Source: a virus
Reading direction: 5' to 3' (one strand)
IMG/VR virus record: IMGVR_UViG_3300025141_000640
Location: 1-26,077 of that record
Length of the DNA: 26,077 nucleotides
Of this stretch, positions 21,564-22,829 are shown one piece after another. Each line of letters starts with the position of its first letter. Positions within the stretch are counted from its first letter, which is position 1. Under the pieces are notes generated by a model that had not been told where the DNA came from, searched no databases, and was given only the letters and a program-made list of their open reading frames with translations. The position numbers and the translations under genes are program-made.

Positions 21564-22466
21564 CTAGGGATCACAAGCGATCTCGACCACCAACTCTTCC
21601 TGAATGCGCGTGGCACCCACGGAGAAGTCGAGGTAGACCTGAGTCGAGTAGTTCTTGTCCGCTCGCTCAGTCACCCTGGTCGTGATCTCTTGGCCGACAG
21701 CAAGCCCAATAGCGTTTGGGGTCCAGCAGTAAACCAACTCGTCGCTAGAACCGTCCGTCGAGAGGGTTTCATACCGGATGAAGGAGAACCCCATGAAACT
21801 ATTGACCTTGCCCTGGACCAGCGCGAATACGTCGTTGTAATCGCGGCTCTGGACCTCGGTTTCGGAAAGCAGCTTCGACAACTGTTGAGCGTTGGCAACG
21901 CAGAAGAGAGGCGCGTTGTCATCGATCTCGCCGTTCGACATGAGGATCTTCTTGGCAGCGATGAGCTTGCCGACCGAGAGGCCAACGTCACCCGAGCCAG
22001 AATCGTAATCATGGTTGTTCACGGCGACTTGCTGGGCGGCGGGAAAGGACACACTTGACGCAGAATCGTCCTCGTCCATTGAAGTGGCGTTGCCACCCAT
22101 GGCCGAGTAGATGCTGGAATCAAACTGACGGCCAGCAGCCCAACCCGCGTTGACCGCATAAGGGCCCTCGGGATCAATGAGCAGCTTGACACGATCAGCG
22201 TTGTCGATCAGGTCAGCCCAAACATAATCGTTCAGGGTGACGCGCCGACGACTGTGTGGCGTGTTGATGAGCGGGGTGTCTTGATGACGGGAAGTGCGGG
22301 CCTGAACGGCAGTAGCGCCGATCCGCTCAAAATAGCCAGCCTTTCCCTTCAGGAAATCGGGGTCAGTACGAACAGCATTGCGGAGCCGTGAGCCCTGCTG
22401 CTGTGCGAGCATGACCACGTTGTCCTGAAACTGTTGCACAAAGGCAACTGTGATTTCCGTGGACAT
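21564..22466 (-). CDS. Major capsid protein, Bbp17-like
   Basis: A 300-residue shell protein. Recognisable parts are RRRVTLNDYVWADLIDNADR (73-92), the following LLIDPEGPYAVNAGW, an AAKKILMSNGEID helix region and a C-terminal VYLDFSVGATRIQEE. This is the capsid type of BPP-1-like podoviruses, presumed HK97-fold. It is preceded by scaffold and small protein and followed by the cement protein. The ATG is set by GGAGAG six bases upstream, which sits in the 3' arm of a perfect hairpin (see leader). The stop lies in a CCTAGG. High expression is expected, so the sequestered ribosome site is odd. Confidence 0.9.
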   Translation of the reverse strand: MSTEITVAFVQQFQDNVVMLAQQQGSRLRNAVRTDPDFLKGKAGYFERIGATAVQARTSRHQDTPLINTPHSRRRVTLNDYVWADLIDNADRVKLLIDPEGPYAVNAGWAAGRQFDSSIYSAMGGNATSMDEDDSASSVSFPAAQQVAVNNHDYDSGSGDVGLSVGKLIAAKKILMSNGEIDDNAPLFCVANAQQLSKLLSETEVQSRDYNDVFALVQGKVNSFMGFSFIRYETLSTDGSSDELVYCWTPNAIGLAVGQEITTRVTERADKNYSTQVYLDFSVGATRIQEELVVEIACDP

Positions 22467-22472
22467 CGGGAT

Positions 22473-22510
22473 CTCTCCGATTTGGTTGAAGCCAAATGTT
22501 TATCGGAGAG
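22473..22510 (-). promoter_or_regulatory. Hairpin sequestering the capsid Shine-Dalgarno
   Basis: Perfect 9-base arms: CTCTCCGAT as the 5' arm in the message (22510-22502) and ATCGGAGAG as the 3' arm (22481-22473). The arm contains the GGAGAG ribosome site, six bases before the ATG. An inner TTGG/CCAA stem with a 6-base loop stacks inside. As drawn, the ribosome site is fully paired. Confidence 0.75.
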
Positions 22511-22520
22511 TAACCCGGAA
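22507..22520. repeat. 14-bp leader repeat, copy near the capsid start
   Basis: AGAGTAACCCGGAA on the plus strand, identical to 22596-22609, 89 bases apart. This copy overlaps the 5' arm of the hairpin that covers the capsid ribosome site by four bases. Confidence 0.85.
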
Positions 22521-22595
22521 ACCCGGACCCTTCCTTGACTGATAACGCTCAGTCCCGACGACTACTCTTGGTAGCCAGCACGGACCCTGCAAAGC

Positions 22596-22609
22596 AGAGT
22601 AACCCGGAA
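22596..22609. repeat. 14-bp leader repeat, distal copy
   Basis: AGAGTAACCCGGAA, identical to 22507-22520. In the message both copies read UACUCU at their 3' end and are complementary to AGAGUA at 22568-22563 between them. Confidence 0.85.
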
Positions 22610-22617
22610 GAGTCTTA

Positions 22618-22646
22618 TCCCTAGACGAATGAAAAACTTATGTCAA
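22618..22646 (-). promoter_or_regulatory. Possible promoter for the capsid gene
   Basis: A perfect TTGACA (22646-22641) followed after 17 bases by TAGGGA (22623-22618), a poor -10. The TTGACA overlaps the last codons of the small gene upstream. It sits just where a capsid-gene promoter would be useful, but the -10 match is weak and a phage polymerase promoter would look different. Confidence 0.25.
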
Positions 22647-22829
22647 GGGCAATTGTTTTTTTACAGGTCCATTTTTGACGTACTGAAAATATTCCTCTGC
22701 CTTTTCTGTGGCAGCAAGAATCTGTGAAGCCGACCCGTGAACATGGGCCAGCTTCAAGCATTCCAGTCGGATGAGTTCATCAGTTAGTGGTTTGGGAAAG
22801 GCCGCATCTTTCGATGTTGGGTTCTTCAT
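22638..22829 (-). CDS. Small conserved phage protein before the capsid gene
   Basis: A 63-residue protein containing LTDELIRLECLKLAHVHG and ILAATEKAEEYFQYV, a helical pattern found in small phage ORFs near head genes. It starts as ATGA over the scaffold stop. Function unknown; it could be a head assembly helper. Another open frame overlapping it on the same strand lies inside the scaffold gene and is a shadow. Confidence 0.6.
   Translation of the reverse strand: MKNPTSKDAAFPKPLTDELIRLECLKLAHVHGSASQILAATEKAEEYFQYVKNGPVKKQLPLT

Follow-up and report, generated by a model that had tools for sequence, protein, structure and literature searches.

A ribosome-site hairpin before a viral capsid gene forms the end of a larger conserved leader RNA

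In a 26,077-nt viral sequence (IMG/VR record IMGVR_UViG_3300025141_000640, positions 1 to 26,077; hereafter the window), the ribosome site of the major capsid protein gene lies within one arm of a hairpin, which raises the question of whether this pairing controls synthesis of the product that the phage needs most. The perfect 9-bp inverted repeat reported in the original prediction is exact in its coordinates, with CTCTCCGAT (22510-22502) pairing with ATCGGAGAG (22481-22473) across a 20-nt loop. The spacing given there is exact as well, GGAGAG lying inside the 3' arm and 6 nt (spacer ATCCCG) before the ATG at 22466. We refer to this ribosome-site hairpin as the lock, and its parts and neighbouring genes in the window are as follows.

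21564..22466, (-), major capsid protein gene, 300 aa, ATG at 22466
22473..22481, (-), lock 3' arm ATCGGAGAG with the ribosome site GGAGAG at 22478-22473
22482..22495, (-), inner stem-loop UUGG CUUCAA CCAA, which lengthens the lock behind a 6-nt bulge
22502..22510, (-), lock 5' arm, the anti-ribosome-site strand CTCTCCGAT
22638..22829, (-), small ORF of 63 aa directly upstream, as in HTVC010P-type phages

The 300-aa product matches the PHROG 3437 major head protein profile (E 4e-81) and is about 41-48% identical to the capsids of HTVC010P-type pelagiphages. The 63-aa upstream ORF has no PHROG match, and searching phage records with the window by DNA similarity gave a single chance-level match and no relative. 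When the leader was folded computationally, as had been proposed for the original prediction, the ribosome-site hairpin was part of the fold, and its stem is longer than first noted because UUGG/CCAA (22495-22492 / 22485-22482) adds pairs past the bulge. The lock then has 13 pairs and a computed energy of about -16 kcal/mol, with a computed ribosome-site pairing probability of 1.0 for the window-type leader L001. A bare 9-bp hairpin is nevertheless at chance level, since the window holds 3 perfect ones with a loop length of 3-40 nt, versus 2-14 in dinucleotide shuffles. Pairing of the ribosome site is frequent in shuffled leaders too (mean 0.5-0.9), so only an exchange of arms between lineages carries weight for the lock. 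The computed window-leader fold also contains a long pairing of GACUCUUCC with GGAAGGGUC, which we left out of the model because, by reading, it is not kept in L091, L095 or L099.

We gathered capsid-gene leaders from IMG/VR, phage records and metagenome-assembled genomes. The nearest distinct relative (L003) retains the lock with a changed loop, and the clade whose capsids are 66-73% identical builds the lock from other sequences, as in these three leaders.

L091, lock arms CTCTCCG/CGGAGGG plus AAAACT/AGTTTT
L099, lock arms TCTCC/GGAGA plus AAGTAG/CTGCTT
L100, lock arms CTCAG/CTGGG plus ACAGA/TCTGT

A sister clade likewise re-pairs the lock (L195, L199, L021, L022, L017, L028 and L275, the last from a bacterial assembly). 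In the arm-swap test, 5' and 3' arms were exchanged among 16 lineages and native pairing was compared with swapped pairing. Native arms were better than every swap in 6 of the 16 (the window, L091, L099, L017, L199 and L275), and in 7 further lineages they were beaten by at most 6 of 28-30 swaps. The test failed in L090, L094 and L188, where the lock is weak or absent, and reading of the leaders found no lock in the L023-L080 group or the T7-like cyanophage group. The compensatory arm changes by which the original prediction was to be judged thus appear in the majority of lineages in the window and L022 clades, and fail to appear in the three lineages in which the swap test failed. Because most of these lineages preserve the pairing despite different arm sequences, the hairpin is significant beyond chance; judged from these sequence comparisons, it is under selection in the window clade and its sister clade, and it is not universal. 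The control role first suggested for it is therefore reasonable in these two clades, where a ribosome-site hairpin is kept with co-changing arms, and does not amount to a general rule, given the lineages and groups in which the lock is weak or missing. Identical 9-bp arms, likewise placing the ribosome site in the 3' arm, are present at 2756-2793 of an unrelated 57.9-kb viral contig (L085), where they precede another reading frame; a collection this large should yield about one match of this kind by chance.

The lock does not stand alone. It forms the end of a longer, conserved leader RNA, with one strand common to both, and the leader does not need the lock. In the window, the leader consists of the following elements, in which hairpin assignments outside the covariance models were made by eye.

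22503..22612, (-), whole conserved leader core (hairpins A, M1, M2 and B), 100.8 bits and E 1e-23 with covariance model R1, which includes the window sequence
22581..22606, (-), hairpin A, CGG-GUUA-CUCUGC-uuu-GCAGGG-U-CCG, first loop copy, 4-nt strand first
22560..22576, (-), hairpin M1, GGCUAC caaga GUAGUC, by reading
22537..22554, (-), hairpin M2, GACUGA GCGUUA UCAGUC, by reading
22532..22536, (-), linker AAGGA joining M2 to B, identical in all 5 sequences of R1
22507..22531, (-), hairpin B, AGGG-U-CCGG-guuu-CCGG-GUUA-CUCU, second loop copy, single base first, then the 4-nt strand

Hairpins A and B each hold a 4x1 internal loop, made of a G.U or A.C first pair plus a 3-nt bulge. They use the same strand in opposite order, which explains a 14-nt direct repeat, AGAGTAACCCGGAA, at 22507-22520 and 22596-22609 that overlaps the hairpin first noted. 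By reading, M1 is re-paired in L003 (GACCAC/GUGGUU) and L091 (GCAGGA/UCCUGC), and the M2 loop (GCGUUA/ACGUUA) is found again in distant leaders. The strand common to leader and lock is CTCT, the first four bases of the lock 5' arm and also the 3' strand of the B closing stem; in the window clade its partner is AGGG in B and AGAG in the lock. The shared strand of L100 reads CTCA, and each partner differs along with it, being TGGG in hairpin B and CUGGG at the ribosome site. The anti-ribosome-site strand of the L022 clade lies beside B, with an overlap of about 1 base.

The twin loops follow a simple rule: base 1 of the 4-nt strand is G if the opposite single base is U and A if it is C, a wobble exchange of the same shape, with a pyrimidine at base 2 and A or U at base 3. 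By eye, the G.U and A.C forms are mixed between the hairpins of one lineage in L003 (AUUA/C in A, GUUA/U in B), L175 and L022; exceptions to the rule are L116 and L015/L016, which have A opposite U. The exchange is a direct, testable prediction on the leader fold. For counting, we used a loop descriptor with flanks of at least 3 bp, earlier minima of 2 bp having been too permissive, and our main test covered 81 leaders, clustered at 85%, for which protein homology was the sole selection criterion, with motif-found leaders left out. These leaders contain 172 rule loops, compared with a mean of 66 and a maximum of 79 in shuffles that ignore relatedness, and 52 of the 81 have a B-type rule loop 28-75 nt upstream of the ATG (shuffle mean 10.4, maximum 15). 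Watson-Crick control loops were near background (A-U 81 vs 64, G-C 47 vs 38) in a set of 96 leaders that includes 15 motif-selected ones and is circular for those 15. In the alignment of the L023-L080 group, 98.1% of cells pair, and the covariation score is 0.066 versus 0.038 in shuffles, which again take no account of relatedness.

To what extent is this leader shared? Whole-leader alignment across clades with MAFFT misaligns hairpin A, and we therefore relied on per-clade covariance models, R1 from five window-clade leaders and R2 from 23 L023-L080 leaders, together with the descriptor and its shuffles. R1 gave 13 matches in 667 kb, all at capsid leaders by position and none elsewhere, including L099, L090, L100 and the distant L030, L007, L022, L116 and L059. 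R2 weakly matches the L018 and L142 leaders, among other low-scoring matches. Each phage record searched has one sense-strand copy of the leader, only before the capsid gene. An unbiased search of IMG/VR with the exact DNA pattern GAGTCCN{2,14}GGGTAGCTC found at least 120 stretches, and 69 of the 120 matches listed lie 15-115 nt before a capsid gene; the six downstream proteins taken as representatives, of T7-like cyanophage-type and other groups, are without exception PHROG 3437 members. By reading, both loops are present in Alteromonas phage ZP6 and Vibrio phage K300. The Syn5 capsid leader has a B-type loop, and HTVC010P and its close isolates carry, at the usual place, a changed form that misfits the descriptor. 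The ribosome-site lock is lineage-specific, and the twin-loop leader is general. At the gathering score, Rfam 15 yielded no family matches in the leaders scanned, the sole hit being Glutamine-II in P-SSP7, and the window gave nothing at either gathering or relaxed thresholds. We found no description of the leader in the open-licence literature; a compendium of viral structured RNAs, reportedly by Fremin and others in 2023, could possibly list it already. The leader is apparently an undescribed RNA carried by many marine phages at the start of the capsid message. An RNA on this message, conserved in several abundant ocean phage groups, would be a new control point in infection.

The leader probably serves to set the amount of capsid produced. 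We infer a switch, its direction and a binding role for the twin loops along the following lines. In the folded RNA, hairpins A and B would flank one or two plain hairpins, and the identical internal loop in A and B looks like a recognition site used twice. By default the lock would be closed and capsid translation low; translation would go up when the AGAG of the ribosome site is freed, either early in transcription or because a factor recognising the twin loops holds B closed. The closing stem of B and the complete lock would be mutually exclusive in the window clade because CUCU belongs to both. Computed energies are -45.8 kcal/mol with the lock closed and B partly open, and -37.8 kcal/mol with B closed, the lock partly open and AGAG free, a gap of 8 kcal/mol that rests on nearest-neighbour rules perhaps unfit for these loops. 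The exclusive switch is not general, since the overlap in the L022 clade is too short for it, and the leader must act without the lock because most of the distant twin-loop relatives have none. As these relatives keep the twin loops regardless, the loops have the more basic role. We see an even chance that the ribosome-site hairpin is the output end of the structured leader and that the switch sets capsid translation in the window lineage. For the fuller proposal our confidence falls a little short of that: tentatively, the twin-loop leader would be an undescribed RNA family at the capsid gene of many marine podophages (HTVC010P-type relatives, T7-like cyanophages and Vibrio/Alteromonas phages), its two wobble-pair-plus-bulge loops binding RNA polymerase, a ribosomal protein or a metabolite of the host and so setting capsid output, and in the window clade it would be wired to the ribosome-site lock as a switch. 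It would then possibly be a new RNA acting on host machinery.

This arrangement resembles the translational platforms of riboswitches in its position as a 5' leader, its conserved upstream domain, its shared strand and its ribosome-site helix with co-changing arms; it is unlike them in that the window-type lock occurs in some lineages only and that no Rfam family matches. An aptamer-like conserved domain does lie upstream of the lock, as seen from the R1 matches, the loop statistics and the covariation, and in the window clade, unlike the L022 clade, the shared strand has a partner in both states. In the computed fold the ribosome site sits inside a stable helix, as in control elements that sequester it.

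An effect of the leader on RNA polymerase is the leading rival to the translation switch, with which it could coexist, and bears on how the capsid gene is transcribed. The window has one promoter candidate near the leader.

22618..22646, (-), possible promoter TTGACA-17-TAGGGA, by reading, second hexamer weak

This candidate failed the promoter scan, and relatives have better promoters at the same place. Just upstream of the leader, sigma-70-like promoters are enriched at a match of at least 9/12 (22 of 80 leaders, versus a shuffle mean of 9.8 and maximum of 17) and at 10/12 or better (8 of 80 vs a mean of 1.6), and Alteromonas phage ZP6 has a perfect TTGACA-17-TATAAT there. A terminator precedes the leader in several lineages, and in T7-like cyanophages it overlaps hairpin A: in L349 (3524-3554), L285, L288, L291, L307 and L374, a strong terminator hairpin GGCTAT..GTAGCC-TTTTTT has TTGACA before it, and its 3' arm is the 5' strand of hairpin A. 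From this overlap, the capsid transcript of T7-like cyanophages would start inside a terminator, so that their capsid promoter may start within the terminator of the upstream genes. Another intrinsic terminator, AGCCGGCATTTGCCGGTT plus a T run, lies between the leader and the capsid ATG in L296 (4549-4566) and also in L322, L346 and L348; it has 7 bp, follows hairpin B, varies in sequence between two species and was seen in the L296 clade only. A stretch in L028, GGGCACCCG, presumably resembling the Syn5 polymerase promoter, was set aside as a probable coincidence.

The rival reading compares the leader to the put RNA of phage HK022: placed at the start of the late capsid transcript, it would bind the transcribing RNA polymerase so that pauses and terminators are ignored over a long late operon, with the lock as a local addition. 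Like put, which consists of two bulged stem-loops near early promoters (PMC9378689), the leader is a cis RNA of bulged stem-loops close to a phage promoter, although this promoter is seen in relatives and is weak in the window. The enriched promoters and the perfect one of ZP6 favour this reading, as does the terminator of the L296 clade, which polymerase arriving from upstream must read through. Some phages of the leader group are also without their own polymerase: one is Skadi, of the HTVC010P type, which lacks an RNA polymerase gene and in which its authors reported no riboswitches (PMC10504331). Unlike put, the leader has another sequence and stands at the capsid gene in a single copy, whereas HK022 has two early sites. 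Moreover, the leader-bearing T7-like cyanophages belong to a group that encodes its own polymerase (Syn5), the terminator after the leader is confined to one clade, and neither R1 nor R2 matches anything in HK022, a weak test as the same models miss some true relatives. On balance we consider such a polymerase-binding role rather unlikely.

Somewhat less probable still is a passive structure, in which the folded 5' end protects the message from decay and ribosomes open the hairpin unaided, with neither switch nor ligand. From the promoter position, the leader would indeed be near the 5' end of the transcript, and structured leaders are common among highly expressed phage genes, for example T7 gene 10, whose podophage capsid message starts, like that of the window, with a structured region. 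We know of no twin loops in the T7 leader. Stability requires neither a doubled, unusual G.U/A.C loop over many lineages nor a strand that keeps two partners.

Binding of the twin loops or the lock by the capsid or scaffold protein, which would repress or activate its own translation, fits an RNA tied to the single capsid family PHROG 3437 and present once per record, yet the leader is retained while capsid proteins drop to about 30% identity (L142, L179 and L182), and we regard this as improbable. An RNA thermometer, whose typical layout does place the ribosome site in a perfect stem, has very little to recommend it, the lock being stable at seawater temperatures with its 13 pairs and thermometers needing no upstream fold, and we give equally little credence to a functionless hairpin, since a few perfect 9-bp hairpins do arise by chance per 26 kb but their arms would not be re-paired in related lineages.

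A known riboswitch occurs in a comparable setting. The Glutamine-II riboswitch (RF01704) is found in marine phages and once upstream of a capsid gene, in P-SSP7 (L399, 2023-2076; 48.1 bits), where it lies about 250 nt before the gene, between the psbA region and the capsid gene, and is followed by a 17-codon ORF. It was not detected in the window or, P-SSP7 excepted, in the other loci scanned. In Syn5 (L398, 19830-19885), an unannotated tRNA-like stretch with a T-arm-like CAGGG TTCGATT CCCTG precedes the capsid leader upstream of the major head gene, and P-SSP7 has a similar T-arm-like stretch.

Some of the records themselves call for comment. Three phage capsid contigs (L274, L275 and L276) were binned into metagenome-assembled genomes named Bermanella, alphaproteobacterium and Methanotrichaceae archaeon, and the archaeal one is probably mis-binned. 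In L166 and L180 (OQ414636 and OQ414635), the locus tags of Baldr and Hodr have apparently been exchanged between records, the Baldr record carrying Hodr tags and vice versa.
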